Origin: a virus
IMG/VR virus record: IMGVR_UViG_3300032897_000001
Coordinates: 1 to 64,000 of that record
Length of the DNA: 64,000 nucleotides
Reading direction: 5' to 3' (one strand)
The notes beneath the pieces are model-generated. The model saw only the letters and a list, made by a program, of their open reading frames with translations. It was not told the origin of the DNA and made no database searches. A program made the position numbers and the translations under genes. Of the stretch, positions 2,771 through 45,881 are shown in pieces (the stretch's first letter is position 1; each line of letters begins with the position of its first letter).

Positions 2771-2875
2771 GTTTGGTGGTGCGGGGAGCGGGAGGGCTTG
2801 ACAGGGCACATTTACCCATGCTTTAAGCCACACACTCTGCAAAAAGAACTTGCTAGTGGTATATAGTTCTGTGGA

Positions 2876-3060: not shown

Positions 3061-3063
3061 CTA

Positions 3064-4744: not shown

Positions 4745-4918
4745 TTGACGCTGCGAGCGCTGTAATGCTAACAAAAAGCCGGCCAGCGCTAGCATGTTGA
4801 AATAACAGCGGATTTCGGCGAAATCCGCTGGCGCTGCCTAGCAAGGCGAGTGCCATGACATGGAGCACTCGCAAACGGGCGAAATAGCGCAATAAATTGC
4901 GGGTGTTGGCATAAGGCT
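4745..4918 (+). ncRNA. Structured leader of array B, candidate guide-RNA scaffold
   Basis: No gene here. It contains AGCGGATTTC-GGC-GAAATCCGCT (4807-4829, 10 bp), GCGAGTGC/GCACTCGC (4846-4872, 8 bp) and an imperfect pairing of two AGCGCT/ATGCT segments between 4755 and 4795. It ends with AAGGCTGAAGAAATA, the lead-in also found at 1897. It may be the 5' part of the array transcript, a scaffold or tracr-like RNA. I see no clear anti-repeat. Confidence 0.4.
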
Positions 4919-5252
4919 GAAGAAATACCCCGGCCTGCCGGGTTAAAAGCAGGAGGGCAAGTGATGCGCCCACGTCTAGCCATGGATCGCGCCGAAGAAA
5001 TACCCCGGCCTGCCGGGTTAAAAGCAGGAGGCCCGACGCGAGGCAAAGCAACGCCGGCAATTGGAGAAGAAATACCCCGGCCTGCCGGGTTAAAAGCAGG
5101 AGTAGGGCGGGCGAACGACATCATAGGCAGTGTAGGACAGCTTGAAGAAATACCCCGGCCTGCCGGGTTAAAAGCAGGAGATCGCGGGCGGACAACTCGT
5201 CATCCGGCTGGTTGTGAAGAAATACCCCGGCCTGCCGGGTTAAAAGCAGGAG
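4919..5252 (+). CRISPR. CRISPR-like array B (five repeats, four spacers)
   Basis: Five essentially identical 37-bp repeats start at 4919, 4994, 5066, 5144 and 5216. Each has the hairpin core CCCGGCCTGCCGGG and tail TTAAAAGCAGGAG. The spacers are unrelated: 38, 35, 41 and 35 nt. A repeat of 37 nt with spacers of 35-41 nt is normal CRISPR geometry for type V. Oddly, every period (75, 72, 78, 72) is a multiple of 3, so one frame runs through the array encoding EEIPRPAGLKAG at each repeat. This leaves a small chance that it is a coding repeat. No cas1, cas2 or other adaptation gene is nearby. Confidence 0.7.
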
Positions 5253-5281
5253 CAACAACGAAGAACTAACGGAGAAATACT

Positions 5282-5539
5282 ATGGACGCACTAGACTTAG
5301 CCGGGTTGTTGATGCTGATTGGCGCCCTGTTTATCGGGTTTTGCTGGGGAAAGACGGGGAACAGCGGCGGTTTTGTCGCCGGCTGCCTGATCTTTTTCGG
5401 CGGTTGGGTTATATTTTGCCTAGGATGGCTGGCAACATATGTGGGCGGGACGGCGCTGATTATTGCGCCCGCACCCGTGTTTGTCATTGCGTTTTTCGCC
5501 ACGCTGAACAAGAAACACAACCCATATCGTGAGGACTAA
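5282..5539 (+). CDS. Small membrane protein
   Basis: An 85-residue protein with three hydrophobic segments (about residues 6-22, 30-50 and 54-74) and a charged C-terminus NKKHNPYRED. ATG 5282 follows AACGGAGAAATACT. It is the first gene after array B. Likely an inner-membrane protein of unknown function; it starts a run of short co-directional genes. Confidence 0.7.
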   Translation: MDALDLAGLLMLIGALFIGFCWGKTGNSGGFVAGCLIFFGGWVIFCLGWLATYVGGTALIIAPAPVFVIAFFATLNKKHNPYRED

Positions 5540-5549
5540 GGAGGTTGAC

Positions 5550-5738
5550 ATGTGTGGGGTACGGGTAAGTGATGTTCGCCCGGGAACGAAGCTGATTGGC
5601 GATGGCTTGTGCTGCACAACTGCGAACGTTCCCATGGAAGTGCGCAAAGAAGGCGGGCGCCTTTATGTGCTTTGTGAAGACGGACGGCATTGGCTGGTGC
5701 CACAGGATGGCCGTTACGTCGGGTTTCGGTTGGCTTGA
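5550..5738 (+). CDS. Small hypothetical protein
   Basis: A 62-residue protein starting MCGVRVSDVRPGTKLIGDG. ATG 5550 has a strong site, TAAGGAGGTTGAC, just upstream. Predicted beta-rich (YVLCEDGRHWLVPQDGRYVGF). No family recognised. Confidence 0.65.
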   Translation: MCGVRVSDVRPGTKLIGDGLCCTTANVPMEVRKEGGRLYVLCEDGRHWLVPQDGRYVGFRLA

Positions 5739-5763
5739 TAACTTGATAAGGAGTGGCCACAAC

Positions 5764-5967
5764 ATGAGTTGGAAACTGATCGGACGCTTTACCCACATCA
5801 AGCATGATGGTGATTACTTGATGTCCGTCGTACCAGACGACGATAAATGGGAGTGGCGCTTGCTTCACAGCAAGAATGTCCTTGCAAGCGAGAGCGGATA
5901 CGACACCAAGGAAGACGCACAGGATGCTGTGATGAAACAGCTTACCAAATACAGGGAACTCGAATGA
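5764..5967 (+). CDS. Small hypothetical protein
   Basis: A 67-residue protein, ATG 5764 after AAGGAGTGGCCACAAC. It reads as a short beta sheet with a helical end (TKEDAQDAVMKQLTKYRELE). The stop overlaps the next start. Function unknown. Confidence 0.65.
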   Translation: MSWKLIGRFTHIKHDGDYLMSVVPDDDKWEWRLLHSKNVLASESGYDTKEDAQDAVMKQLTKYRELE

Positions 5968-6365
5968 TGTCCTTTCGTATGATAGCACTTGTGGCCATTC
6001 TGGCCCTTCCTACCTGCAGCGCACGCGCTGCAGACTGCCAGAATAAGGACTACTCCCCTTATTCCGAAGATCACGCCTGTGTTAATAAGTATTACGAGGT
6101 TATGGAGATTGCCCATAACCTTGGCCGTGTCCTCTATTATGAGGAAAAGTGCGGTCTGCAATATGAACCAACGGCTGTTGCCCGTTACATCCGGGAACAC
6201 ACACCGAATGATCGCTTTGATTTTTCCGGGTGGGTGAACACCGCAGCCAGTTATGAAAGGACCATGGAGAAGACTTTTGATAAAGGTTCTGTGAGTCCGA
6301 ATACTCTGCTTGCTGTATGCACAAGCATACAGATGGCTGCAAAGCATTATGGGTTTGTGAAATGA
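5964..6365 (+). CDS. Secreted hypothetical protein
   Basis: 133 residues with a Sec signal peptide (MMSFRMIALVAILALPTCS, cleavage likely after ARA near residue 22) and four cysteines in the mature part, consistent with a periplasmic or secreted protein. It overlaps the previous stop by ATGATG. Function not recognised. Confidence 0.65.
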   Translation: MMSFRMIALVAILALPTCSARAADCQNKDYSPYSEDHACVNKYYEVMEIAHNLGRVLYYEEKCGLQYEPTAVARYIREHTPNDRFDFSGWVNTAASYERTMEKTFDKGSVSPNTLLAVCTSIQMAAKHYGFVK

Positions 6366-6559
6366 ACAAAGAAGGCGCCACACGTCGTGTGAAAACAACT
6401 TGGGAATTGATGTTCGAAGGCTTGGCGTGCCCGCATTGTGGGCTTATCAGGATGCACAAGCACTATTACCCTGGTCCGATTGACACCGCCCTGCAGCACG
6501 ATGAAAACGGCAACTATTGGACATGGAGTCCCCGGGACAATGAACAAGAACCCATCTGA
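6362..6559 (+). CDS. Small protein with CPHC motif
   Basis: 65 residues, ATG 6362 overlapping the previous stop. It carries one CPHC pair (near residue 23) followed by HKH, possibly a metal site. Function unknown. Confidence 0.6.
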   Translation: MNKEGATRRVKTTWELMFEGLACPHCGLIRMHKHYYPGPIDTALQHDENGNYWTWSPRDNEQEPI

Positions 6560-6995
6560 GCAAGCCGTGTTATCCGTTGCCGAAGGAATACACGGCACGT
6601 GGTACTATCATCTATGGGTTCAGCCAAAGAATTCTTCCGGTGGAAAAGCGTTGTGTGGTGCCCAGGTGATGGTCACAAGCATTCCCATGTCGGCATGGGG
6701 AACACGGACGCATCTCAATGAGCGTTGGTGCAGTCTGTGTAAGAAGCTGACAGAGCCGCGGGTTGATCCGCAGGCTGTGGCAGCATTTGCAAATACTGAT
6801 GTGCCACTACCCACCAATCTGCCTGAACGCCTGGAAGAAGCCGCAACACGTCTAGACACAGACGATGACTTGCCTTTCGGATTCGTGCAGGTTTTTCGAG
6901 AGGCAGCGGCACGTATCAGAGAACTTGAGAAGCAGTGCAACCGGCTGGAATTACTTGTGCCCAGCCCGCAGGGGGAGGATACGGGTTTTGTGTGA
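6540..6995 (+). CDS. Hypothetical protein with cysteine pairs
   Basis: 151 residues, ATG 6540 overlapping the previous gene's end. The N-terminal half has CSLCKKL and a separate Cys (CGAQ). The C-terminal half (FREAAARIRELEKQCNRLELL) is a predicted coiled coil. No family recognised. Confidence 0.6.
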   Translation: MNKNPSEQAVLSVAEGIHGTWYYHLWVQPKNSSGGKALCGAQVMVTSIPMSAWGTRTHLNERWCSLCKKLTEPRVDPQAVAAFANTDVPLPTNLPERLEEAATRLDTDDDLPFGFVQVFREAAARIRELEKQCNRLELLVPSPQGEDTGFV

Positions 6996-7317
6996 GAAAA
7001 CGAGCCGTGCTCTTGAGCAGGCGATTCGTAAATGGGAAGCAATTGTTGCGGGTTCAGGCCGCGATCTAGGACCTGAAAATTGTGCTCTATGCCAGTTATT
7101 CTATTATAAAAACTGTGTTGGCTGTCCTGTTTATCAAAGCACGGGTCTGCGTTATTGTGCAGGTTCGCCATATGAAGAGTGGTCCTATTATGGGTATAGG
7201 TCCGCCACAGATGGCGGCGATATTGTCCCCTATGAACTTGCCAAGAAAGAGTTGGAGTTTTTGAAATCTCTTAGAAATCCTGTAACTGACTTTAGTAAGG
7301 GAGTCCCCCATACATAG
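6988..7317 (+). CDS. Cysteine-rich small protein, tandem copy 1 (TTG start)
   Basis: 109 residues. The start is chosen as TTG 6988: GGGGGAGG lies 8-10 nt upstream, and the product MCEKTSRALEQAIRKWEAIV then lines up with its paralogue at 7350. Cysteines in CALCQLFYYKNCVGCPV could bind zinc or an Fe-S cluster. The C-terminal KELEFLKSLR is shared with the paralogue. Function unknown. Confidence 0.65.
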   Translation: MCEKTSRALEQAIRKWEAIVAGSGRDLGPENCALCQLFYYKNCVGCPVYQSTGLRYCAGSPYEEWSYYGYRSATDGGDIVPYELAKKELEFLKSLRNPVTDFSKGVPHT

Positions 7318-7349
7318 GGTAATAAACCATCGGAAGGGATAAGAACGTC

Positions 7350-7667
7350 ATGGATGAGCAAACGAAACAGGCTCTTGAAGGATCAATCGACAAGTGGGAA
7401 GCCATCGTTGCTGGCACCGGTGTTGACCGGGGTCGTCATAACTGTCCGTTGTGTAGGCTATTTTACATCCTTGGATGTAAAGGCTGCCCGGTTTACCTGA
7501 AAACCGGCGCACAGAATTGCAGGAAAACGCCTTACGAAAGATGGAAAATTCACGGTTACCGGCTTTATGGCTGTAGCACGATTGAAGGGACAAAAATTAT
7601 GGAGATGGCGCGGGATGAACTGGAGTTTTTGAAATCGCTGCGGGAACCGTCTGCCAACGTTTCGTAG
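7350..7667 (+). CDS. Cysteine-rich small protein, tandem copy 2
   Basis: 105-residue paralogue of the preceding gene. Shared blocks are KWEAIVAG, CPLCRLFYILGCKGCPVY and ARDELEFLKSLR. Four conserved cysteines suggest a metal-binding knuckle. ATG 7350, preceded by GGAAGGGATAAGAACGTC. Function unknown. Confidence 0.65.
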   Translation: MDEQTKQALEGSIDKWEAIVAGTGVDRGRHNCPLCRLFYILGCKGCPVYLKTGAQNCRKTPYERWKIHGYRLYGCSTIEGTKIMEMARDELEFLKSLREPSANVS

Positions 7668-8950: not shown

Positions 8951-9050
8951 GTACGCCGCTGTTGACGTGCCGCAAGGGTAGCGGACCATTCTGTGACCAC
9001 GCACAGAGCGGAAGTCGCGGGTTCGAATCCCGTCGTTGACAGCGGCGTGC
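8951..9050 (+). ncRNA. tRNA-like RNA with 17-bp acceptor-like stem
   Basis: This folds as a tRNA-like cloverleaf of 100 nt. The D arm is CCGC-AAGGGTA-GCGG (8970-8984) and the T arm has a perfect TTCGAAT loop (GCGGG/CCCGT). The acceptor-like helix runs 17 bp (8951-8967 with 9034-9050) instead of 7. The anticodon-position arm is a 10-bp helix (8986-9011, one A-C mismatch) with a six-base loop ACCACG, so no usable anticodon. There is no CCA. It is not a normal tRNA. A hairpin GAGACCAC/GTGGTCTC (8919-8948) lies just upstream and a terminator just downstream. Bacterial Y RNAs also carry tRNA-like modules. Confidence 0.6.
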
Positions 9051-13971: not shown

Positions 13972-14048
13972 GCGCGCGTAGACCAACGGTAGAGTCCGGT
14001 TCCTCAAAAGAACTCCAAGTATCGGTTCGAATCCGATCGCGCGCACCA
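13972..14048 (+). tRNA. tRNA with CAA anticodon (Leu by code), CCA encoded
   Basis: Acceptor GCGCGCG/CGCGCGC, T arm ATCGG-TTCGAAT-CCGAT, anticodon stem GGTTC/GAACT with loop CTCAAAA, giving anticodon CAA at 14005-14007. The D stem is short (GAC/GTC). The CCA end is encoded (14046-14048). The variable loop is only about 6 nt, whereas bacterial tRNA-Leu normally has a long variable arm. Confidence 0.8.
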
Positions 14049-14099: not shown

Positions 14100-14173
14100 G
14101 GCTCCCTAGTCCAATTGGCAGAGACGACGGTTTTAGAAACCGTGCGTTCCGGGTTCGAATCCCGGGGGAGCCA
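14100..14173 (+). tRNA. tRNA with TAG anticodon (Leu by code)
   Basis: Acceptor GGCTCCC/GGGAGCC, T arm CCGGG-TTCGAAT-CCCGG, anticodon stem ACGGT/ACCGT with loop TTTAGAA, giving anticodon TAG at 14134-14136. The variable loop is 5 nt (class I body), unlike usual tRNA-Leu. There is no encoded CCA tail after the discriminator base. Confidence 0.8.
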
Positions 14174-30670: not shown

Positions 30671-32644
30671 ATGGCAAGCCGCGAACAACGGTATGAGTCT
30701 CGCGGCCAGATGGGACTGGGATTTTCAATAGAGGAAATAACAAGGGTTCCGCAATCCAACTGGGTTGCGCCCGATCCGTCTACATGGCCTGACAGGCTTG
30801 TAGGAGACATCGGGATTGACACAGAAACCCACGACTTAGGCTTGAATGCCAAACAAGGCGCGGGCTGGGCGTGGCGTGGCGGCGGGGAAGTTGTTGGCTA
30901 TTCCATCACTGCCGACAACTTCTCTGCTTATTTGCCCGTGGGACACGAAGGCGGCGGCAACTTGGATCGGAACCAAGTCCGCCGCTATCTTAACCATGTA
31001 CTTGCTGACACAAAGCAACGCAAGATTTTTGCCAATGCCGGATATGACATACCATGGGCTGAAAACGATGGCGTAAAAATCGCTGGCCCTGTCATAGACA
31101 TTCAAATGACAGAAGCGCTGCTTGATGAATACCGGCGCTCTTATTCCCTGGAAAATATTGCCCAGGACCGTTTAGGCCGCGGTAAGAATGAAGCGATGTT
31201 GGCGGATGCTGCGAAGGCTTTTGGATACGATCCAAAAGGCGAATTGTGGCGCCTGCATGCCAAATTTGTCGGTCCTTATGCGATCGAAGATTCTTCACTC
31301 CCCCGAGACATTTGGAATGTGCACAAACCTCTGATTGAAAAAGAGGGTCTTACTCGTATCTGCGATCTGGAACATGCATTGCTGCCGATGTACGCTGACA
31401 TGCGGCGCCGCGGTGTACGTGTTGACTTGGATCGGGTTGACCAATTGAAAACACGGTTCCGGGAAGATGTGCAGCACGAAATTGCGCAGATCAAGGATTC
31501 TACGGGCATAGATGTCGCTCTGTGGGAACCACAGAGCGTCGCACGTGTTTTGGATTATGTGGGTATCAAATACGATGTCACGGCTAAGACTCGGCAACCC
31601 TCCATAAAGAATGAACTGCTCAAAGCAACAGATCACTGGATCGCGAAAGCACTGCTCCGTGCCCGTGAAAAAGATAAACTTATCGGCACGTTTCTAGACG
31701 GGCAGTTACTTGGTAAGTGCCATGATGGCCGCGTGCACGGGTCCATTAATCCGCTGAAATCCGATGACGGGGGAACAGTTACCGGCAGAATTTCAATGTC
31801 GGACCCTAACCTGATGTTCATTCCTGCGCGCACTGCGGAAGGAAAACTAATCCGCGCGTGTCTTATCCCCGAGGAAGGTGAGGAATGGATATCGGTCGAT
31901 TACAGTCAACAGGAAGTACGGCTTCTGGTACACTTCGCTATTGTAGCATCCCGATACGTAAAATTCCCTCGGGAACTGCGGGAACGGTTGGCAACCGCTG
32001 TGGAGGCACAGCGCCGTTATCTAGAAGACCCGAACCTGAATTATCACAAATTTGTCGCGGAAATCACCGCGCTGGCCTATTCTATGGCCAAAGGCTTGAA
32101 TTTCGCGATCATCTATGGCCGCGGCATTGAAGAGACATCGCGCGCACTCGGCATAAGCTATGATGAAGCCAAGCGGCTGTTTAGCCAACACCGGGAAAAA
32201 ATGCCGTTTGCCCGGGCTATGGCTGACGCAGCACAGCGTATCGTCCGGGAACGTGGCTATATTACCACACTCTTAGGAAGACGGCAGAGATTCCCGTTTT
32301 GGGAGCCAGACGATTGGAATAAGCGCACCGATCGGTTGCTTCATGAACAAGAGGCACGTATGATGTGGCCGAATCAAAAGCTGGTGCGGGCCAGAATCCA
32401 TAAAGCATTGAATTCGGTTGTACAGCCATCGGCTGCGGACCAAATGAAGAAGGCAATGCTTGATATCTGGAATGCCGGCTATGGTGGGAGTGTCTTAATC
32501 CAGGTACACGATGAATTGAACCTATCCACGGGCAGTCGTAAGATTGCCAACAATGTCGCGGAAATCATGCGATCCACAGTGGAACTGGAAGTCCCTGTGT
32601 TAACAGACATCGCATATGGAAAGAACTGGGGTGAAGCAACATGA
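30671..32644 (+). CDS. polA: Family-A DNA polymerase
   Basis: 657 residues. The N-terminal half has a 3'-5' exonuclease domain starting GIDTETHD (res 49-56). The polymerase half has motif A SVDYSQQEVRLLVHF (res ~412), O-helix KGLNFAIIYGRG and motif C IQVHDEL (res ~615). Without the 5' nuclease domain of bacterial Pol I, this is a phage replicase. The 3' end overlaps the next gene (ATGA). Confidence 0.93.
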   Translation: MASREQRYESRGQMGLGFSIEEITRVPQSNWVAPDPSTWPDRLVGDIGIDTETHDLGLNAKQGAGWAWRGGGEVVGYSITADNFSAYLPVGHEGGGNLDRNQVRRYLNHVLADTKQRKIFANAGYDIPWAENDGVKIAGPVIDIQMTEALLDEYRRSYSLENIAQDRLGRGKNEAMLADAAKAFGYDPKGELWRLHAKFVGPYAIEDSSLPRDIWNVHKPLIEKEGLTRICDLEHALLPMYADMRRRGVRVDLDRVDQLKTRFREDVQHEIAQIKDSTGIDVALWEPQSVARVLDYVGIKYDVTAKTRQPSIKNELLKATDHWIAKALLRAREKDKLIGTFLDGQLLGKCHDGRVHGSINPLKSDDGGTVTGRISMSDPNLMFIPARTAEGKLIRACLIPEEGEEWISVDYSQQEVRLLVHFAIVASRYVKFPRELRERLATAVEAQRRYLEDPNLNYHKFVAEITALAYSMAKGLNFAIIYGRGIEETSRALGISYDEAKRLFSQHREKMPFARAMADAAQRIVRERGYITTLLGRRQRFPFWEPDDWNKRTDRLLHEQEARMMWPNQKLVRARIHKALNSVVQPSAADQMKKAMLDIWNAGYGGSVLIQVHDELNLSTGSRKIANNVAEIMRSTVELEVPVLTDIAYGKNWGEAT

Positions 32645-33335: not shown

Positions 33336-33397
33336 ATCTGCCTCCTTTCTCCGTCTTGTGTGTAGCGCGATATTCGAAATGCCTCCAGTGGATTTTT

Positions 33398-33450
33398 TGG
33401 ATTTTTTTCAAAAAACTTGTTGACGTTTCCTGGGGAACGATTATTATCTG
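33398..33450 (+). promoter_or_regulatory. Promoter module P3
   Basis: AT-rich element TTTTTTTCAAAAAACT, -35 TTGACG (33420-33425), 16-nt spacer holding TTCCTGGGGAA, and -10 TATTAT (33442-33447). The initial transcript begins near a small CTGTCT/AGACAG hairpin. Confidence 0.8.
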
Positions 33451-33467
33451 TCTTGTCAGACAGAGAC

Positions 33468-33557
33468 GAAAGGCGGTGACACGGGCAGGTCCAATGGTAA
33501 TCGGCAGAACTCAGTCCCCTAACGTATGAACGGGAAAGGACTGGTGGGAGGCGAAAA
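33468..33557 (+). ncRNA. Conserved 90-nt leader RNA element, copy 1
   Basis: Starts GAAAGGCGGTGACACGGGCA and contains CAGTCC...GGACTG enclosing CCTAACGTATGAACGGG. It is almost identical in four places (33468, 34827, 37714, 40224), always exactly 90 nt and always ending at a hammerhead ribozyme. In the copy at 37714 the stem changes to AGACTC/GAGTCT on both sides, so it is a conserved helix. Family unknown. Confidence 0.65.
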
Positions 33558-33613
33558 GGTCGAAACGGCGGAGATTCCGCCGTCGTGCCGTGAGGCGGCA
33601 CCTGATGATGGCC
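33558..33613 (+). ncRNA. Hammerhead ribozyme (type II), copy 1
   Basis: Core order GAAAC - stem III (CGGCGGA/TCCGCCG) - GTC - stem I (GTGCCG/CGGCAC) - CTGATGA. Stem II is open, formed by GGTC and GGCC at the ends, with one unpaired T after CTGATGA. Cleavage expected after C33584, leaving stem I plus SD on the downstream mRNA. Confidence 0.8.
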
Positions 33614-33630
33614 AAACAGGGAGAACAACT

Positions 33631-34089
33631 ATGTCGGTTTGTCAAATTTGTGGTAGAGCGGTCAAATCCAAAAATGGCGTGATCGCACACCACGGCTTCA
33701 AACGTCCCGGGCAGGGCTGGCAGACTGCTTCGTGTTACGGAGCGAAATATCGCCCCTACGAAGTAGCGAAAGACGCTTTAGAGAACTACTTGCCTGAAGT
33801 CAAAAAGTGGATGAAAATCAAACAGGAGTCGTTGAATTCTCTCCTGGACTGTCCGCCCGATAAGCTTGACGCAGTCATCAAGCTTGATGCTTCGGGCAAA
33901 ATGAAGAGTGTCGTTTATACCAAACCCGACAATTTCGATAAGAATGACAACCAGCACTACGTGCAACCGCACTCATATGCGGGGGAGTACCGAAGCAAGG
34001 TACGGCACCTGCGGATTCAGATTGCGGAGATGGTTCAAGACATCGGATATCTGACGCAGCGGATAGCCGATTGGAAAGGAGAGGCGTAA
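33631..34089 (+). CDS. Zinc-finger and coiled-coil hypothetical protein
   Basis: 152 residues, ATG 33631 after GGGAGAACAACT. CQICGRAV plus ...GVIAHHGF gives a C2H2-like finger at the N-terminus; residues 110-145 look coiled-coil. First gene behind promoter P3, leader 1 and ribozyme 1. Function unknown. Confidence 0.65.
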   Translation: MSVCQICGRAVKSKNGVIAHHGFKRPGQGWQTASCYGAKYRPYEVAKDALENYLPEVKKWMKIKQESLNSLLDCPPDKLDAVIKLDASGKMKSVVYTKPDNFDKNDNQHYVQPHSYAGEYRSKVRHLRIQIAEMVQDIGYLTQRIADWKGEA

Positions 34090-34119
34090 GCCTCTCCCAT
34101 GCTTTGCTCGGGGTGATTT

Positions 34120-34185
34120 GAAAGTTTTTTGAAAAATCTTCAAAAAACAGGTTGACGTTTCCTGGGGAATGATTATTATCAATCT
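34120..34185 (+). promoter_or_regulatory. Promoter module P4
   Basis: Perfect AT-rich dyad GTTTTTTGAA/TTCAAAAAAC, -35 TTGACG (34152-34157), spacer with TTCCTGGGGAA, -10 TATTAT (34174-34179). No leader element or ribozyme follows. Confidence 0.8.
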
Positions 34186-34231
34186 TGTCAGACGGGCCGG
34201 ACGGGCCAGCCCAAAAAGGGGAGTAACGATT

Positions 34232-34450
34232 ATGGCGGAACAGACAATGACTTGGCGGATCGTGCGGCGCGCATATTCCCAATACCATCTTGTTGAAGAG
34301 GGAATCGCGTCATGGCAGGATGCACAGATCCGGTCAATGGATTTGCAGTACAAGAATAAAGACGGGGAGTATCTCGTGATCCGGGCGGATGCACCTAATC
34401 ACGATTACAGTGGCCCCAATTACGGCCAGTCCCCCTTTGATTACCTCTAG
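34232..34450 (+). CDS. Small hypothetical protein
   Basis: 72 residues, ATG 34232 after AAGGGGAGTAACGATT. Beta start (TMTWRIVRRAYSQYHLVEEG), C-terminus rich in Tyr, Asn and Gly. Driven by P4. Unknown. Confidence 0.6.
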   Translation: MAEQTMTWRIVRRAYSQYHLVEEGIASWQDAQIRSMDLQYKNKDGEYLVIRADAPNHDYSGPNYGQSPFDYL

Positions 34451-34467
34451 GAAAAGGAAGAACCTCT

Positions 34468-34737
34468 ATGAAACTTTCGGCAGAACAACTCGCGATTCTT
34501 CGTGCTCTTGATGGCGGACCCGAGGAAACTGGCATTATCGCCATTTTCGCCAATGTGTCGGGGTACAGTGTGGGAGCACGGAACCGAAAGGCACGGAACC
34601 TGCTTTTGGAACTGAAATACCACGGTTTCGTCGAGTACGCGGATAGTGAGAAGCCGTGGATCTGGCAGCGTACCGAAGCAGGAACCGCGGCTATTGCGGG
34701 AAGCCCGACACAGCGCCAACCCCGCAGAAAGGCGTAA
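34468..34737 (+). CDS. Winged-helix protein (possible regulator)
   Basis: 89 residues. LSAEQLAILRALDGGPEETG, ARNLLLELKYHGFVEYADSE and WIWQRTEAG form a compact wHTH with wing. Second gene of the P4 unit; a candidate regulator of the repeated promoters (inference). Confidence 0.6.
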   Translation: MKLSAEQLAILRALDGGPEETGIIAIFANVSGYSVGARNRKARNLLLELKYHGFVEYADSEKPWIWQRTEAGTAAIAGSPTQRQPRRKA

Positions 34738-34749
34738 ATGGGCGCCAAA

Positions 34750-34812
34750 AGTTTTTTGAAGTTTTTTCAAAAAATTTGTTGACGTTTCCTGGGGAATGTT
34801 TATTATCAGTCT
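34750..34812 (+). promoter_or_regulatory. Promoter module P5
   Basis: AT-rich dyad, -35 TTGACG (34779-34784), spacer with TTCCTGGGGAA, -10 TATTAT (34801-34806). Confidence 0.8.
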
Positions 34813-34826
34813 TGTCAGACAGAGAC

Positions 34827-34916
34827 GAAAGGCGGTGACACGGGCAGGTCCAATGGTAATCGGCAGAACTCAGTCCCCTAACGTATGAACGGGAAAGGAC
34901 TGGTGGGAGGCGAAAA
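34827..34916 (+). ncRNA. Conserved 90-nt leader RNA element, copy 2
   Basis: Identical to copy 1 in almost every position, ending at ribozyme 2. Confidence 0.65.
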
Positions 34917-34972
34917 GGTCGAAACGGCGGAGACTCCGCCGTCGTGTCGTAAGGCGGCACCTGATGATGACC
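34917..34972 (+). ncRNA. Hammerhead ribozyme (type II), copy 2
   Basis: GGTC-GAAAC, stem III CGGCGGA/TCCGCCG, GTC, stem I GTGTCG/CGGCAC (one G-U), CTGATGA, then GACC, which pairs perfectly with GGTC. The GACC here versus GGCC elsewhere is a compensatory change supporting stem II. Confidence 0.82.
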
Positions 34973-34988
34973 AAAGGAGAAAGACACC

Positions 34989-35204
34989 ATGCCACGTATG
35001 AGAATCACAATCGAAGTCGAGACCGCTTCATTCAAGAACATGGGAGAGCGGAACAGATTCAACAAAAAGGTGTTGGAAGTGGCCCAGGCCGCTTTCCCCA
35101 CCATCGGGAAACAAGAACTCGTTTTTGTCTCGACTGAAGACATGTCCGGGCATGCCATCTGCCTGGGTGAAGACGGTATGCCAACCAACGCCGTTCGTTA
35201 TTGA
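34989..35204 (+). CDS. Small hypothetical protein
   Basis: 71 residues, ATG 34989 after AAGGAGAAAGACACC. Ferredoxin-like alternation of strands and helices (MRITIEVETASF, FNKKVLEVAQAAF, LVFVSTEDM). Unknown. Confidence 0.6.
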   Translation: MPRMRITIEVETASFKNMGERNRFNKKVLEVAQAAFPTIGKQELVFVSTEDMSGHAICLGEDGMPTNAVRY

Positions 35205-35219
35205 AAGGAGCAATGATCC

Positions 35220-36107
35220 ATGAAAATCACTCTCAACACCGCTGCTTTTTGGGCAGCGTGCGCGATGTCGGCATTTGCAGGCATTGTCGCAACGTCCGGG
35301 CTTGCCAGCTTCATTCCCGGTGTCAACGTCCTGGGCGTTAATGCCGTGTGGGTGATGGGTATCTTATTCGAGGTTGGCATGCTGGTTGCGTTTGCCTATC
35401 TTCACAAGCATTGGCAGACGATCAGCCCCAGTCTCAAATACGGACTTGCCGTGCTGGCAAGCATTGTTATTGTGCTTGACATCATCGGGGTAGCCGGCCA
35501 ATTTAGCCAAGGCTACCAAGCACGGCGGCACGCCGCTGATGCGGCAAACATGGTGGCAGTGACCAATGCAGCGGCGCACATTGCGCAAGCCGAAGACGCT
35601 GTTGCAGAGCTTGACAGACAGCTTGCTGCGGTAAGCGAGGAAATCAACAAAATTTCCGATGCACAGATCCGCGCCAAGGACGATAGAGACCGTGTCAAAG
35701 CAGCACGGGCACTCAAAATTGAGGCAGAGTCCCGGAAGACTGCTTTGCTCCAGAAACGGGCGGAAGCGTCTAGCGTTCTGCTTGCGGCACGGACCGAAAA
35801 GGGTGCGGCTGATGCATCTGCGGTTACCGGATCGGGAGAGTTTGCCGCGATCCAGTTTGCGGCACAGTCACTCGGATGGAGCGAAGATGCTGTTGCCCGT
35901 GTGATAATCTGGATCTTGTCCGGGCTGGCGTGCTTGTTTGCACCATGCTTGATTGCAGTGTCAGGACACGAAACTACTCCCATCAAAGTCAAGGCGCCCG
36001 AAAAGGTGCTGACTGCCCGGCAGATTGCGGCGCGTAAGGGCGCGGAAACCCGGAAGCGCAACAAGGCTCTCAATGCCAAAAAGAATGTTGTGGCGTTGAA
36101 GGCGTAA
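35220..36107 (+). CDS. Membrane protein with internal coiled coil
   Basis: 295 residues. Three hydrophobic segments at the N-terminus (about 10-30, 42-60 and 75-97), a long coiled coil (about res 110-200), then a fourth membrane segment (about 228-250) and a basic tail. The coiled coil would be external or periplasmic. Stop is immediately followed by ribozyme 5. Unknown function. Confidence 0.65.
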   Translation: MKITLNTAAFWAACAMSAFAGIVATSGLASFIPGVNVLGVNAVWVMGILFEVGMLVAFAYLHKHWQTISPSLKYGLAVLASIVIVLDIIGVAGQFSQGYQARRHAADAANMVAVTNAAAHIAQAEDAVAELDRQLAAVSEEINKISDAQIRAKDDRDRVKAARALKIEAESRKTALLQKRAEASSVLLAARTEKGAADASAVTGSGEFAAIQFAAQSLGWSEDAVARVIIWILSGLACLFAPCLIAVSGHETTPIKVKAPEKVLTARQIAARKGAETRKRNKALNAKKNVVALKA

Positions 36108-36166
36108 GGCCGAAACACAGGACAGGTGCCCTGTGTCGCACCGTAAGGCGGTGCCTGATGATGGCC
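36108..36166 (+). ncRNA. Hammerhead ribozyme (type II), copy 5 (intercistronic)
   Basis: Begins at the base after the upstream stop codon. GGCC-GAAAC, stem III CACAGG/CCTGTG, TC, stem I GCACCG/CGGTGC, CTGATGATGGCC. GGCC pairs with GGCC. The stem III sequence is unrelated to copy 1, so the structure, not the sequence, is conserved. Confidence 0.82.
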
Positions 36167-36181
36167 AAAGGAGAGCACAAC

Positions 36182-36481
36182 ATGTGTGGTGACAAGAAAA
36201 CACAGATCGCGGGAATCATTGATTTCTGCAGAGAAAATGACCTGACATATATGAGGTACAACGGAAGGGGGATGTTCAGTCGGGAATGCTTTGCGGTTAG
36301 CATCCCGGACATAGGCACGCTGTGGGACTTGGCAGCATTCCTTGGTGACCCTGCGTTGCCCACACCTAGCACAGACCAGCTTGGCAGAGGCTACGTGGCC
36401 TATTGGCCCGATCATTTCCCTATGACTGGCCCTCTCGGGACCTATGTTGACTTACAGCTTCGCGGGGAAGGCGTGGATTGA
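36182..36481 (+). CDS. Hypothetical protein
   Basis: 99 residues, ATG 36182 after AAGGAGAGCACAAC. Short helix then beta (TYMRYNGRGMFSRECFAVSI). Unknown. It follows ribozyme 5. Confidence 0.55.
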   Translation: MCGDKKTQIAGIIDFCRENDLTYMRYNGRGMFSRECFAVSIPDIGTLWDLAAFLGDPALPTPSTDQLGRGYVAYWPDHFPMTGPLGTYVDLQLRGEGVD

Positions 36482-36496
36482 TCCTGGCGCCGAAGA

Positions 36497-36552
36497 TTTT
36501 TTGAAAAATCTTCAAAAGCCTGTTGACGTTTCCTGGGGAAAGGCGCACAGTG
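36497..36552 (+). promoter_or_regulatory. Promoter module P6
   Basis: Dyad TTTTTTGAAAAATCTTCAAAA, -35 TTGACG (36523-36528), TTCCTGGGGAA in the spacer. The -10 is poor (GCACAG), so it may need an activator. Confidence 0.6.
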
Positions 36553-36597
36553 ACTTTGTTGGCACCGGGGTGGCGCCTGGAAAGAGGAGGAACTGTC

Positions 36598-36867
36598 ATG
36601 GTGATGCGTGCACTGCGCTGGAAGCGCAAGTTTCGTGCAGTAAAGCTTTCCAAACCCACCAAGACCCTGTTTTACGGCGTGTTCTGCCGTGGCAACCTTG
36701 TTGTCAAGTGCCGCAACGAAGCTAGCGCGATCGACTTTATCGAACGCCAGACCGCAGAGGATCGCGAATGGCGCCGCAGGCAGGTTCTTGAATATCTCGC
36801 AGAACGTGCTCAGCGGGCTGTTGTGGTTGACACTGAGCAGGCGCCCGACCAGTTGGAACTGTTCTAA
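36598..36867 (+). CDS. Small protein with C-terminal beta-clamp binding motif
   Basis: 89 residues, ATG 36598. It is basic at the start (MRALRWKRKFRAVKLSK) and ends APDQLELF, the canonical QLxLF sliding-clamp binding pentapeptide at the extreme C-terminus. With a phage beta clamp at 27412, it likely docks onto that clamp or the host's. Ribozyme 6 follows. Confidence 0.6.
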   Translation: MVMRALRWKRKFRAVKLSKPTKTLFYGVFCRGNLVVKCRNEASAIDFIERQTAEDREWRRRQVLEYLAERAQRAVVVDTEQAPDQLELF

Positions 36868-36869
36868 AA

Positions 36870-36924
36870 GGCCGAAACACGGGATATCCCGTGTCGCACC
36901 GTAAGGCGGTGCCTGATGATGGCC
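36870..36924 (+). ncRNA. Hammerhead ribozyme (type II), copy 6
   Basis: GGCC-GAAAC, stem III CACGGG-ATAT-CCCGTG, TC, stem I GCACCG/CGGTGC, CTGATGATGGCC. Confidence 0.82.
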
Positions 36925-36943
36925 AGAAAGAGGAGACAAACAA

Positions 36944-37165
36944 ATGCGTGTATATTTTAACCCCGATGTGGTCGCGGCATATGGCGATATGGCCGATACC
37001 CCTGAATTCAAAGTCGGTTTTATGGATTTCTATTTAGGAGTTCTCAACAATTCTGTGCCGGATCTTTTGCGGGATGAAAAATCCGCAATCGCTTGGCGTT
37101 CTGGGTGGCATGCCGCACAAGCGTGCGCCGAAAGTTTTTTGAAAAATATTCAAAAAGACTGTTGA
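36944..37165 (+). CDS. Hypothetical protein overlapping the next promoter
   Basis: 73 residues, ATG 36944. Its last residues are encoded within the AT-rich dyad and -35 of promoter P7 (ESFLKNIQKDC). Unknown function. Confidence 0.55.
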   Translation: MRVYFNPDVVAAYGDMADTPEFKVGFMDFYLGVLNNSVPDLLRDEKSAIAWRSGWHAAQACAESFLKNIQKDC

Positions 37166-37195
37166 CGTTTCCTGGGGAATGCTTATTATCAATCT
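37133..37195 (+). promoter_or_regulatory. Promoter module P7
   Basis: Dyad GTTTTTTGAAAAATATTCAA, -35 TTGACG (37162-37167), TTCCTGGGGAA, -10 TATTAT (37184-37189). No leader or ribozyme. Confidence 0.8.
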
Positions 37196-37246
37196 TGTCA
37201 GACGGGCCGGACAGACCGAGCCAGACCAGAAAGAGGGGAGACGGTT

Positions 37247-37603
37247 ATGGGTTCCTATGAAATCATCCGCCACGAAATCAAGAATGTGAAGGCAGCGAAA
37301 GCGGCGTTCGCCCGGCTGGAAGCCGCATACAAAATGGTTGATGCGGAATACGTCAACGATGAGTCTTGGCAGGAGTTCCACGGCGTTGAGTACAAATTCG
37401 GCGGTTTGGCGTGGTGGAAGGCCCGTGTGCTGGCAATGACCATCAGGATTGAGTGGCAGGCTAGTACCCGCGTGTTCATCTCTCCCCCTTCCGAGGAAAG
37501 CCGCAACAAGGACTCTTTTGAAGGTGGTCACCACGAAGTATACACCGATCGCAAGGCATTGGCTGCAGCGCAAATCAAGGTGGCCGCGTTGCTCCGCGGC
37601 TAA
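37247..37603 (+). CDS. Hypothetical protein
   Basis: 118 residues, ATG 37247. Helical with a central Trp-rich section (KFGGLAWWKARVLAM). Unknown; sole gene of the P7 unit. Confidence 0.55.
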   Translation: MGSYEIIRHEIKNVKAAKAAFARLEAAYKMVDAEYVNDESWQEFHGVEYKFGGLAWWKARVLAMTIRIEWQASTRVFISPPSEESRNKDSFEGGHHEVYTDRKALAAAQIKVAALLRG

Positions 37604-37635
37604 CCCCACGGCGCCCATGGACTTTGTGGGCGCCA

Positions 37636-37700
37636 AAAGTTTTTTGAAGTTTTTTCAAAAAACTTATTGACCTTTCCTGGGGAATGCCCTAGAGTAGCTT
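37636..37700 (+). promoter_or_regulatory. Promoter module P8
   Basis: Dyad, -35 TTGACC (37667-37672), TTCCTGGGGAA, -10 TAGAGT at 17-nt spacing. Confidence 0.7.
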
Positions 37701-37713
37701 TGTTGGTTGGAAC

Positions 37714-37803
37714 GAAAGGCGGTGACACGGGCAGGTCCAATGGTAATCGGCAGAACTAGACTCCCTAACGTATGAACGGGAAAGAGTCTGTGAGAGGCGA
37801 AAA
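37714..37803 (+). ncRNA. Conserved 90-nt leader RNA element, copy 3
   Basis: Like copies 1 and 2, but the inner helix is AGACTC/GAGTCT instead of CAGTCC/GGACTG: both sides changed together. Confidence 0.68.
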
Positions 37804-37859
37804 GGTCGAAACGGCAGAGACTCTGCCGTCGTGTCGTAAGGCGGCACCTGATGATGACC
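37804..37859 (+). ncRNA. Hammerhead ribozyme (type II), copy 3
   Basis: GGTC-GAAAC, stem III CGGCAGA/TCTGCCG (covaries against copy 1), GTC, stem I GTGTCG/CGGCAC, CTGATGA, GACC pairs with GGTC. Confidence 0.82.
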
Positions 37860-37875
37860 AAAGGGAGTACCGATC

Positions 37876-38172
37876 ATGAAAAACGAAGCATTTGAAGCCG
37901 CTCTTGCAGCATTCTTGGTTGCCGCACAAGCTTTGTGCGATGCCAGCGGCTCTTACAGCTATACCAAACTGTCTATGCAATACGGGCGCCGTTATGTCCG
38001 TATCGTCGCAGAACGCTCCGGACAACAGTCCGTATGGGGATTTGTGGACACCACAAACGGGAATGTGCTTAAGGCAGCCAGCTGGAAAGCACCCGCTACC
38101 AAATATGCACGCGGCTGCATTTATGACGAAAATCGGGGTTGTGGCCGGGCAAGGTGGATGGGTGTTGCTTAA
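37876..38172 (+). CDS. Hypothetical protein
   Basis: 98 residues, ATG 37876. Helical start (NEAFEAALAAFLVAAQALCD) then beta strands (RRYVRIVAERSGQQSVWGFV). Unknown. Confidence 0.6.
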   Translation: MKNEAFEAALAAFLVAAQALCDASGSYSYTKLSMQYGRRYVRIVAERSGQQSVWGFVDTTNGNVLKAASWKAPATKYARGCIYDENRGCGRARWMGVA

Positions 38173-38176
38173 AGCA

Positions 38177-38232
38177 GGCCGAAACGGCGGAGATTCCGCC
38201 GTCGCACCGTAAGGCGGTGCCTGATGATGGCC
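38177..38232 (+). ncRNA. Hammerhead ribozyme (type II), copy 7
   Basis: GGCC-GAAAC, stem III CGGCGGA/TCCGCCG, GTC, stem I GCACCG/CGGTGC, CTGATGATGGCC. Confidence 0.82.
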
Positions 38233-38247
38233 AAAAGGAGAAAGACA

Positions 38248-38436
38248 ATGGCAGAATTTATCGTGTCAAAATACAAAATCGGCGACATCGTAACTTTGAA
38301 AAGCGGCGAGGTGTTGCGCATTACCGCGATCCGCGATCGCGCCCACTACACCAAGGCCGCATATAGTGCGGTGGAAGTCCGTAAGGGTAAGCGTCCTGGT
38401 AAAGAACGTCTCTTCATTGAGGCGGACGCGTCATGA
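38248..38436 (+). CDS. Small SH3-like protein
   Basis: 62 residues, ATG 38248. KYKIGDIVTLKSGEVLRITAI has the opening of a small beta barrel. It lies in front of the AAA+ gene. Unknown. Confidence 0.6.
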   Translation: MAEFIVSKYKIGDIVTLKSGEVLRITAIRDRAHYTKAAYSAVEVRKGKRPGKERLFIEADAS

Positions 38437-38473
38437 CGCGGCATAACGAAATTCAAAACGCTGGGGAACAAAA

Positions 38474-40105
38474 ATGACACAGACCAAAAGCCAGATTGTT
38501 GCGGCGGATGTCGCCGCTTTGTTGCGGGCGCGGAACCCGCTGATTTGGATCGTTACCCGGGAAGAATCTCGGGTTGAAACCAACATTGTGCAGGCCGCGG
38601 CTGCAGCGGGATATGGTGCCTGCACATGGGATGTCGCACAAGGCGCACGCACTATCGACGGGGCACGGGTGCCGGGTAGTGATGGCACTGAGGATGTCAG
38701 CGCCATGTTCGCGATGATAAAGGCACAATCCGAAAATGTGCAGCGTGCACAACGGTGCGTGTGGATCATGCGAGACTTGGCGCCATGGCTGCAAGGGCCA
38801 ATCGGCATGGTCACGTTGCGACAGCTTCGGAACCTTGCCCGGGCACTGCCCGGGACCGGGCGGAGCACGTCACAGGCAATCGTCGTGTTGACGACTTCCC
38901 CAAATGTCCCGGACGAATTGGAGGGACACGCGGTAGTGATCGAATGGCCCTTGCCCGATCGCGAGGAAATTGCGGCAATCCTTGACGCTGCAATCACGGC
39001 ACTGCCCGAAAACGATGAGAAAGGCGTGCCCGTTCGCGGTCCCGCAACACCAATCAATGGGGTTCGCGAGGCAGCAATTGATGCGGCGGTGGGGCTTTCC
39101 GGAGAGGAAGCCGCGGCGTGTTTTGCAAAATCCTTGGTACAGATCCGGAAGATCGACCCGCCGCTGATTACCAAGGAAAAGCGCCGCGTCATCTCCAAGG
39201 CAGGTGTTTTGGAGTGGTTCGAACCGCTTTCTGGCGGGTTGGGCGCTGTGGGTGGTCTCGACAATCTAAAAGATTGGCTGATTGCCCGGCGCGCCGCTTA
39301 TTCGCCACGTGCGCGGGCTTATGGTCTGCCAGCGCCAAAAGGTGCACTCCTTGTTGGTGTCCCCGGGTGTGGTAAGTCGCTCACAGCAAAGGCTGTTGCA
39401 ACAGCCTGGGGCGTGCCCTTACTTCGGATGGACCTGGGCGCATTGAAGAGTAAATATGTGGGCGAATCCGAAGGGAACCTTCGGAAAGCGTTCCAGATCA
39501 TTGAAGCCATGGGGCGGTGCGTCGTGTGGCTGGATGAAATTGAAAAAGCCTTGGCAGGCGCAACGCAAGGCGCTGCAGATGGTGGCGTGTCATCGGATGC
39601 TTTGGGCGCCATTCTAGGGTGGATGCAAGATCGTAGCGGACAGGCGTTTGTCGTAGCTACTGCAAACGACATCTCTGCGCTGCCTCCGGAATTGCTCCGT
39701 AAGGGGCGATTTGATGAAGTGTGGTTCGTTGATTTGCCGAACCCTGATGAACGGGCAAGCATCCTGTCCGCCGCATTACGGGCACACGGTCGGGACACCA
39801 AAACGCTTGTGTCCAAAGAACAGGATTCCGCTGCTGTAGTTGCAGCAACGGAAGGCTTTTCCGGAGCCGAAATTGCGGCACTGGTTCCGGACGCCATGTA
39901 TACGGCATTCGGAGATGGGGAACGGGAAATTACCGTGGATGATCTGTGGTTTGCTGCAAGGCAGACTGTGCCGTCAACCCGGACATCAGCAGAGAAGATT
40001 GAGAAATTACGGGAATGGTCCCGCAGTGGTCGCGCAAGGCTTGCCACACGGACAGTTTCCAAGGCGGAGACTACACAAGGAACCGGGCGCAAACTCGACA
40101 TCTGA
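38474..40105 (+). CDS. AAA+ ATPase, Ycf46-like
   Basis: 543 residues. The N-terminal domain (NPLIWIVTREESRVE) resembles the degenerate first AAA domain of Ycf46. The C-terminal AAA domain has Walker A GVPGCGKS (about res 298), Walker B CVVWLDEIEK (about 352) and an arginine-finger region LLRKGRFDE (about 413). It is a remodelling ATPase; the substrate is unknown, and such genes recur next to the 40631-type gene in phages. Confidence 0.8.
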   Translation: MTQTKSQIVAADVAALLRARNPLIWIVTREESRVETNIVQAAAAAGYGACTWDVAQGARTIDGARVPGSDGTEDVSAMFAMIKAQSENVQRAQRCVWIMRDLAPWLQGPIGMVTLRQLRNLARALPGTGRSTSQAIVVLTTSPNVPDELEGHAVVIEWPLPDREEIAAILDAAITALPENDEKGVPVRGPATPINGVREAAIDAAVGLSGEEAAACFAKSLVQIRKIDPPLITKEKRRVISKAGVLEWFEPLSGGLGAVGGLDNLKDWLIARRAAYSPRARAYGLPAPKGALLVGVPGCGKSLTAKAVATAWGVPLLRMDLGALKSKYVGESEGNLRKAFQIIEAMGRCVVWLDEIEKALAGATQGAADGGVSSDALGAILGWMQDRSGQAFVVATANDISALPPELLRKGRFDEVWFVDLPNPDERASILSAALRAHGRDTKTLVSKEQDSAAVVAATEGFSGAEIAALVPDAMYTAFGDGEREITVDDLWFAARQTVPSTRTSAEKIEKLREWSRSGRARLATRTVSKAETTQGTGRKLDI

Positions 40106-40146
40106 TGCTGGTTAGCGAAGCTGTGGCGGGTGCTGACAGCTTCGCT

Positions 40147-40210
40147 AAGTTTTTTGAAAAATATTCAAAAAACTTGTTGACGTTTCCCGAGGGAACCCTT
40201 AGGATAGCTT
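40147..40210 (+). promoter_or_regulatory. Promoter module P9
   Basis: Dyad GTTTTTTGAA/TTCAAAAAAC, -35 TTGACG (40177-40182), operator TTCCCGAGGGAA (perfect palindrome), -10 TAGGAT (40200-40205). Confidence 0.75.
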
Positions 40211-40223
40211 TATTAGTTGGAAC

Positions 40224-40313
40224 GAAAGGCGGTGACACGGGCAGGCCCAATGGTAATCGGCAGAACTCAGTCCCCTAACGTAGGAACGGGAAAGGACTGG
40301 TGAGAGGCGAAAA
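40224..40313 (+). ncRNA. Conserved 90-nt leader RNA element, copy 4
   Basis: Two differences from copy 1 in the loop region; otherwise the same, ending at ribozyme 4. Confidence 0.65.
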
Positions 40314-40368
40314 GGTCGAAACGGCGGGTTCCCGCCGTCGTGTCGTGAGGCGGCACCTGATGATGACC
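40314..40368 (+). ncRNA. Hammerhead ribozyme (type II), copy 4
   Basis: GGTC-GAAAC, stem III CGGCGGG/CCCGCCG, GTC, stem I GTGTCG/CGGCAC, CTGATGA, GACC. Confidence 0.82.
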
Positions 40369-40385
40369 AAAGAGGAGCAAACACA

Positions 40386-40556
40386 ATGAATACCAAAATG
40401 AAGAAGTTCAGTGCCGTTGCCTTCAAGGGCGAAGATCGGTTCATGTTTTCGTTCGATTGGCCCAACTGGTATCGTATCGAAGAAGAGGCGCGGCGCGTGC
40501 TGGATGAGAAGGGTTTCCCGGATTGGGAGTTCCGTAGCATCGATATTCGCGCATAA
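40386..40556 (+). CDS. Small hypothetical protein
   Basis: 56 residues, ATG 40386. Starts MNTKMKKFSAVAFKGEDRFM; Trp-containing middle. First gene after ribozyme 4, and immediately followed by ribozyme 8. Unknown. Confidence 0.6.
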   Translation: MNTKMKKFSAVAFKGEDRFMFSFDWPNWYRIEEEARRVLDEKGFPDWEFRSIDIRA

Positions 40557-40557
40557 A

Positions 40558-40613
40558 GGCCGAAACGGCGGATATTCCGCCGTCGTGCCGTGAGGCGGCA
40601 CCTGATGATGGCC
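40558..40613 (+). ncRNA. Hammerhead ribozyme (type II), copy 8
   Basis: GGCC-GAAAC, stem III CGGCGGA/TCCGCCG, GTC, stem I GTGCCG/CGGCAC, CTGATGATGGCC. It starts 2 nt after the upstream stop. Confidence 0.82.
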
Positions 40614-44213: not shown

Positions 44214-45881
44214 ATGCCGGACTACGTTTCCCGCCGCAAGCCGCGCGCGCATCAAGTGGATGCACTGAAAGCGATTGACGGACAACGTGCTTTTGCTGTG
44301 CTTATGGGCATGCGTTGCGGAAAGAGCAAGGTGATTACCGATGATTTCGGCAAAATGGTCACAGAGCGTCGCGCGCTTGATCTTCTCATAATCGCTCCGG
44401 CAGGCGCATACTTGCCCTGGCAAGGTGCACTGCAAGATGATCTTCCGGAAAGCATCTTCCGGGCGCTCCGAATGCACGTGTGGGTATCGTCTAAAGCACG
44501 GTCTAAAGGCGCACAGAGTGCCCGAGAGGCGTTCATGCTGTACCGTGGCCCGCGGGCACTTATCATCAACACAGAAGCCTTGTCGAGCGTCCTGACGGCA
44601 CGGCAATTCGTTGATGATTTTGTTTGTCAACGGCGGGAGCAGTGCGTTGCGGTGATTGATGAAAGCGTTACGATAAAAAATCCTGAATCAAATGCCGGAA
44701 AATTCGTTGCCGCACGTCTTGGTACAGTGGCGGGATGGCGTCGCATCATGTCAGGACTCGTCTCTCCACGCTCTCCCACAGATTTGTGGAACCAGTTCAA
44801 ATTTCTTGATCCGAGTATCCTGGGCTTTGAAGACTTCGTGGCGTTTCGGGCGCGTTACGAAAAAGTCAAATACGTGTGTATGGCGCCCAGTAGCCTTCTA
44901 CGGGAAAAATTGCGCGCGTTAGTGGGCGATTTGCAGACGCTGCCGGGCGCCCAAATGGCACTGGTGGCCCGGCGTATCAATCCAGATATCAACCCACAAG
45001 GCATGGGGAGAGCACAGCTTAGGAACTGGATTGACGCTCAAGTTGAAGGCATGCCGCGGGATTCTATGATTGACGCCATTCAACGGTTCGGCGGATATGT
45101 GCAGAGCGTCGCGGTAGTGGAAGGCTTTCAAAATCTCGGGGAACTGCGGGATAAGATCGCACCCTACTCTTTCCGGGTCCGTCTTGAAGATTGCTTCGAT
45201 ATGCCCCCCGTGGATTACTCGTTTCGCGATGTCGAGATGACACAGGAACAGGCGCGGATTTATCGCGAGATGAAACAGAATGCTACAGCGATCCTGGAAA
45301 GTCTTGATCACGTAACGGCGACACACGTCGTAACGCAGATGCTCCGATTACACCAAGTGCTGTGCGGCCATGCTGTGGATGAAGAAGGTACGATCCACGA
45401 CGTACCGGAAAAACGTACTGCGGAACTGTGCAGCATGTTGGAAGATTATGATGCAAAAGCAATCATTTGGGTAAGCTATGATCGCAGCATGCAGAAAGTC
45501 GTAGCAGCACTAGAAAAACGATATGGTGCAGGCAGTGTGGCGAGGTTCTGGGGCGGCAATGTCAAGACTCGCGAGGCAGAGGAAGTACTATTCAAGACTG
45601 ATCCGCAGTGCCGATTCATGGTGGCAACACCAGACGCGGGCGGGATGGGGCGGGATTGGAGCGTTGCCGATTGGGTGATATACTTTTCCACAAAGAACAA
45701 TCTGCACCATCGCTATCAATCCGAGGACCGGGCAAAGGCTGTTGGTAAAATGCGCCCGATCGCATACACGGATATGCGCGTACCCGGAACAGTGGAGGAT
45801 AAGAACCTGCAGTGTCTCCGGAATAAAATAGACATGGCAACAGTGATCGCTGGTGACGATTGGAGAAAGTGGCTGATATGA
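44214..45881 (+). CDS. SNF2-like superfamily 2 helicase
   Basis: 555 residues. Motif I MGMRCGKSK (res ~35), DESVTIKNPES as motif II, and motif VI QSEDRAKAVGK with SNF2 hallmarks. It remodels or translocates on dsDNA. The preceding nuclease may be its partner. ATG 44214. Confidence 0.85.
   Translation: MPDYVSRRKPRAHQVDALKAIDGQRAFAVLMGMRCGKSKVITDDFGKMVTERRALDLLIIAPAGAYLPWQGALQDDLPESIFRALRMHVWVSSKARSKGAQSAREAFMLYRGPRALIINTEALSSVLTARQFVDDFVCQRREQCVAVIDESVTIKNPESNAGKFVAARLGTVAGWRRIMSGLVSPRSPTDLWNQFKFLDPSILGFEDFVAFRARYEKVKYVCMAPSSLLREKLRALVGDLQTLPGAQMALVARRINPDINPQGMGRAQLRNWIDAQVEGMPRDSMIDAIQRFGGYVQSVAVVEGFQNLGELRDKIAPYSFRVRLEDCFDMPPVDYSFRDVEMTQEQARIYREMKQNATAILESLDHVTATHVVTQMLRLHQVLCGHAVDEEGTIHDVPEKRTAELCSMLEDYDAKAIIWVSYDRSMQKVVAALEKRYGAGSVARFWGGNVKTREAEEVLFKTDPQCRFMVATPDAGGMGRDWSVADWVIYFSTKNNLHHRYQSEDRAKAVGKMRPIAYTDMRVPGTVEDKNLQCLRNKIDMATVIAGDDWRKWLI

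Follow-up and report, generated by a model that had tools for sequence, protein, structure and literature searches.

The 64,000-nt stretch of viral DNA analysed here (the window), positions 1 to 64,000 of the 100,794-base IMG/VR virus record IMGVR_UViG_3300032897_000001, carries eight short RNA elements packed into one 7-kb region, which are probably self-cleaving type-II hammerhead ribozymes whose activity would give separate mRNAs with hairpin-protected ends, a reading derived from sequence and structure modelling. A first-pass annotation of the window had predicted that type-II hammerheads split a polycistronic mRNA at these sites, which fits the structure, the core and the placement of the elements as described below.

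The eight coordinates proposed in that annotation are correct, all copies lie on the plus strand, which is the coding strand (Table 1), and inspection of the sequence finds the order GAAAC, stem III, GTC, stem I and CTGATGA, with an open stem II, complete in each of them. The layout per element is A-GGYC-GAAAC-(stem III)-GTC-(stem I)-CTGATGA-T-GRCC, with four pairs in stem II. All bases of a type-II core (C3 U4 G5 A6 N7 G8 A9, G12 A13 A14, the A15.1-U16.1 pair and H17) are in place, i.e. CTGATGA, GAAA, the A-U pair and a C at the cut site in 8/8 copies. A G10.1-C11.1 pair is present in all eight but does not directly adjoin A9, since the conserved unpaired T reported after CTGATGA does occur in every copy, as one U separating A9 from G10.1. 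Loops closing stems I and III, together with an open stem II, are supported both by covariation and by the minimum-energy folds, the RNAfold structure being the hammerhead three-way junction in all eight cases (z from -2.3 to -4.1). The pattern GAAAC-N6..24-GTC-N10..30-CTGATGA has nine matches in the window compared with a mean of 0.06 in shuffled sequences; the ninth, at 11848, is taken as chance because it lacks stem I and is not recovered by the covariance model. A reading of the elements as coding sequence was also rejected, as an open frame covers only some copies.

The stem variants on which the annotation had relied are present, both in stem III (CGGCGGA/TCCGCCG, CGGCAGA/TCTGCCG and CACAGG/CCTGTG) and in stem II (GGTC/GACC versus GGCC/GGCC, with a G-U pair, GGTC/GGCC, in copy 1), and stem I, absent from its account, covaries too (GUGYCG/CGGCAC versus GCACCG/CGGUGC). 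A covariance model (R1) built on 37 relatives and seven window copies, copy 3 being left out, scores all eight at 65-76 bits and has no other match in the whole record. Over 44 sequences, 704/704 cells are paired, both sides having changed in 214, and pairing falls to 31-41% when the partner columns are slid; since these rows were selected partly by pairing, the pattern-based stem test that follows is the cleaner of the two. In Rfam, Hammerhead_II (RF02276) is the sole family with a notable score in the region, detecting five of the eight copies at 22.7-32.3 bits (best E 0.0014) and leaving three unlisted. At the gathering level Rfam reports no hammerhead in eight of the ten hammerhead-bearing loci tested, including L018, L024 and L087.

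The pattern-based test used CGAAAC-N-GTC-N-CTGATGA-T-GRCC, in which no stem I or stem III pair is fixed beyond the core. It matches 114 stretches in IMG/VR, and of the 112 hits that are distinct 91 have both stems. Replacing the T by A, C or G gives 58 stretches; both stems occur in 3/47 of their distinct hits, one of the three being an insert-free copy in another register and two being true copies, both with A. When no base is inserted, at least 120 stretches match, with both stems in 125 of the 143 distinct hits among the matches listed. Counted by distinct copies, the inserted base in IMG/VR is U in about 106, A in 2, and C or G in 0. Cellular genomes hold at least 119 stretches with the U pattern, which look like chance because both stems occur in 0/118 distinct hits among the matches listed; the true copies among those listed all come from viral contigs. 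Copies with and without the U share 17 loci, hence the U is an option and not a lineage marker. Eight copies are many for one virus, though not unique, since the contig of locus L131 (IMGVR_UViG_3300038412_000035, 2572-7559) has 11 hammerheads in a row, and L230 has about 9, mostly lacking the extra U. BLAST of a single hammerhead against named phages gave hits at chance level only, and searching 190 genomes from a single bacterial class with a model gave nothing, a result that shows little, as the filters were strict and there was no positive control.

Concerning the shape of these copies, stem I with its loop measures 17 nt in 104 of the 115 U copies, and the loop, left free by the pattern, reads U-N-A-N-G (U in 104/104, A in 89/104 and G in 97/104). 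An A precedes stem II in 111/115 U copies and follows it in 91/115, neither position being set by the pattern. Loop I is the same in insert-free copies, and the eight window copies all show the five-base U-N-A-N-G loop with an A flanking stem II on both sides. A pseudoknot of at least four pairs between loop I and the tail past stem II is ruled out for the eight copies, whose longest Watson-Crick run is 1-2 pairs. In compact relatives this pairing equals the shuffled-tail level; among long-loop copies, 11/32 have five or more loop I-tail pairs versus approximately 1.4% in shuffles. At locus L224, several type-II hammerheads of the long-loop kind have a tail that includes a Shine-Dalgarno-like CCGGAGG and that could pair with loop I; such a fold could affect ribosome access.

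The placement of the elements is similarly regular. Their description as insertions between phage genes holds for copies 3, 4, 6 and 8, which begin 0-4 nt past a stop codon, but not for copies 1, 2, 5 and 7, which end promoter leaders; the claim that they stand directly before the next ribosome site applies to all, as 8/8 lie 15-19 nt ahead of a start codon with a Shine-Dalgarno sequence. Outside the window there are 107 distinct U copies, of which 96 have the stop codon of a long open reading frame (ORF) at -6 to 15 nt from the copy start (random, 11.6%), 74 have a start codon with a Shine-Dalgarno sequence within 40 nt downstream (random, 8.8%), and 66 have both (random, 1.2%). Insert-free copies are similar among the matches listed, with a stop in 154/182, a Shine-Dalgarno start in 126/182 and both in 108/182. 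In multi-copy loci all copies lie on a single strand in 76/76 cases, with a median spacing of 471 nt.

In the mechanism proposed, transcripts from repeated promoters would be cut at each element, just 3' of the GUC, with four cuts falling between cistrons, right past a stop codon, and four at the end of a promoter leader. Each downstream mRNA would have a 5'-OH at its start, immediately ahead of the stem I hairpin and then the ribosome site, and each upstream piece would carry the stem III hairpin and a 2',3'-cyclic phosphate at its 3' end. The predicted cuts would give three internal fragments, one of 1,194 nt with two ORFs (34944-36137), one of 373 nt with a single ORF (37831-38203) and one of 245 nt, again with a single ORF (40340-40584), and the messages would probably be divided into pieces of one or two genes. 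The probable benefit lies in placing adjacent genes on separate mRNAs with uniform, hairpin-protected ends, so that amount and decay could differ from gene to gene; from general knowledge of bacterial RNA decay, end protection and independent decay of the pieces are the most plausible advantage. Self-cleavage, its occurrence during infection and an effect on stability or translation are what we infer from the sequence, predicted structure, covariation and placement observed.

Several observations weigh against this mechanism. No copy reaches the RF02276 gathering cut-off of 37 bits, which is a library threshold and does not define the ribozyme class. Every copy has the extra U at the core edge and is without the pseudoknot that sped up a tested type-II example, so that the copies could be slow at cellular magnesium. 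Finally, phages with a 57-66% identical AAA ATPase (L301-L315) have no hammerhead in the up to 10 kb around it; these relatives manage without the elements, which come and go independently of the ATPase gene.

Table 1. Coordinates of the predicted hammerheads and of other features in the window.
Feature	Position	Strand	Predicted cut	Context	RF02276 (bits)	R1 (bits)
Hammerhead 1	33558-33613	+	33584/33585	ends promoter leader	30.5	71.6
Hammerhead 2	34917-34972	+	34943/34944	ends promoter leader	26.2	71.0
Hammerhead 3	36108-36166	+	36137/36138	directly 3' of stop of ORF 35220-36107		65.2
Hammerhead 4	36870-36924	+	36895/36896	2 nt past stop of ORF 36598-36867		75.0
Hammerhead 5	37804-37859	+	37830/37831	ends promoter leader		70.0
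Hammerhead 6	38177-38232	+	38203/38204	4 nt past stop of ORF 37876-38172	32.3	75.7
Hammerhead 7	40314-40368	+	40339/40340	ends promoter leader	22.7	72.2
Hammerhead 8	40558-40613	+	40584/40585	1 nt past stop of ORF 40386-40556	31.7	72.4
Promoter-like TTGACG-16-TATTAT	33420-33447	+		ahead of leader copy a		
Leader copy a	33466-33556	+		reference; hairpin core CCCTAACGTATGAACGGGAAA at 33517-33537		
Leader copy b	34825-34915	+		98% over 132-nt query; hairpin 34876-34896		
Leader copy c	37712-37802	+		92%; hairpin 37763-37783, stem CAGTCC/GGACTG changed to AGACTC/GAGTCT		
Leader copy d	40222-40312	+		97%; hairpin 40273-40293		
Two ORFs (34989-35204, 35220-36107)	34989-36107	+		between predicted cuts of copies 2 and 3		
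Single ORF, phrog_5014, unknown function	37876-38172	+		between predicted cuts of copies 5 and 6		
Single ORF, no PHROG family	40386-40556	+		between predicted cuts of copies 7 and 8		
DNA polymerase	30671-32644			phage replication region		
AAA ATPase	38474-40105			phage replication region		
Helicase	44214-45881			phage replication region		

The interval between polymerase and helicase, where all eight elements lie, is a series of small, mostly unknown plus-strand ORFs; the tail and baseplate genes in the window are encoded on the opposite strand. The DNA of the region had no match among plasmids, and only a 184-base stretch of the ATPase matched among phages. Elsewhere the window has three tRNA-like genes (8961-9041, 13972-14048 and 14100-14173), of which two are tRNA-Leu (anticodons CAA and TAG).

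The 91 bases ahead of copies 1, 2, 5 and 7, which lie downstream of a promoter-like site, are 92-100% identical to the leader of copy 1 and contain a hairpin with an invariant core, CCCUAACGUANGAACGGGAAA, and a variable outer stem. This hairpin recurs in six further IMG/VR contigs, four of which share one sequence; over six distinct sequences 93.8% of the cells are paired, and each of the five outer pairs shows compensatory change. L435, L437 and L440 are among the phage contigs that have it, and a similar stretch (ACGAAAGGCGGTGA, ACGAAAGGAGGTGA, ACGGAAAGCGAGGTGA) precedes it in the window, L435 and L437. No Rfam family matched the leader, and our guess is that the hairpin could be a promoter-proximal regulatory or antitermination element. 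A promoter scan gave 13 promoter-like sites versus 4.5 expected; besides the one in front of leader a, others like it begin at 34152, 34779, 37162, 37667 and 40177, and a -35-like TTGACG is found at 36523. Between both hexamers most of the promoter-like sites carry TTTCCTGGGGAA, with an inverted repeat TTCC/GGAA (33395-33447 and six similar stretches, up to 40205), and just upstream most have an AT-rich inverted repeat (e.g. AGTTTTTTGAA...TTCAAAAAACT); these repeats look like a shared operator or activation element.

The presence of a hammerhead 3' of every leader copy (4/4) allows a different view of active ribozymes, namely that at the promoter copies their chief job would be to free a leader RNA of approximately 130 nt acting in trans, with cistron splitting as a secondary effect. 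The near-identity of the leader among copies, the covariation of its hairpin stem and the recurrence of the hairpin in unrelated phage contigs agree with this. However, no hammerhead was found next to the leader hairpin in the other phage contigs, and hence the general function of the hairpin does not involve release by a hammerhead, and half of the window's hammerheads lack a leader; we thus consider a leader-centred role unlikely.

It is similarly doubtful that the elements are descendants of hammerheads too slow to matter, kept as mRNA-shielding hairpins, as protein-binding sites or as sequence for cassette recombination. Slowness would suit the extra U at the core edge and the missing pseudoknot, and cassette exchange would profit from near-identical repeats at the borders of genes, but the core is intact in 8/8 copies while stems I and III drift freely with compensation across phages, copies of the U form are common and constrained in loop I, and recombination repeats would also preserve the stem sequence. 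That the elements are normal intrinsic terminators, or hairpins that arose by chance at the ends of genes, is practically excluded by the expectation of 0.06 for the full core pattern and by a terminator scan, for although each element has GC-rich hairpins past a gene or leader, no T-run follows stem III or stem I on the plus strand, none of the plus-strand terminator-like sites falls at an element, and the elements precede the ribosome site of the next gene.

Transcript splitting by type-II hammerheads, the explanation we favour, appears right but is not new, since it has been published for prophage clusters: Perreault et al. (2011; PMC3088659) described clustered type-II hammerheads flanking prophage genes, proposed that they cut long phage transcripts, and obtained cleavage in vitro for three bacterial hammerhead clusters and in E. 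coli for one. The present elements share with the prophage type-II hammerheads (PMC3088659; RF02276) the permutation, the core, the occurrence of several copies around single genes or short blocks and the proposed role. In most published type-II hammerheads, loop I and the 3' tail form a pseudoknot of at least four pairs, although many lack it, as the same paper notes (PMC3088659). In contrast to that majority form, the eight copies have the five-base U-N-A-N-G loop and no pseudoknot, and they differ from the type-II hammerheads of PMC3088659 and RF02276 by the U added between A9 and G10.1 and by scores below the Rfam gathering level.

The (+) hammerhead of Chrysanthemum chlorotic mottle viroid likewise has one additional nucleotide, its core being standard in other respects. 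There it reportedly sits between A9 and G10.1. In the viroid, which infects plants, the extra nucleotide is an A in a hammerhead that is not type II, whereas here it is a U that recurs in more than 100 phage copies. The viroid case is from De la Pena and Flores (2001), as cited in PMC3705267, and insertions as such are not new, because known alignments are stated to contain one- or two-nucleotide insertions beside CUGAnGA (PMC10085705). As far as the papers found show, the text of open papers, which is what the literature search covered, holds no description of the compact sub-form with U after A9, of its strict placement or of the coupling to a leader. We tentatively put forward, as a possibility with the odds against it, that compact, pseudoknot-free type-II hammerheads with U after A9 might form a distinct phage sub-class serving as stop-ribozyme-ribosome-site punctuation, here joined to an undescribed promoter-leader RNA, each cut setting an mRNA 5' end and freeing a leader RNA with a role of its own.

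Standard Rfam annotation overlooks the compact sub-form in most cases, and its abundance in phages is therefore probably underestimated. The tight layout of stop codon, ribozyme and ribosome site in many phage contigs makes the role of phage hammerheads experimentally testable.

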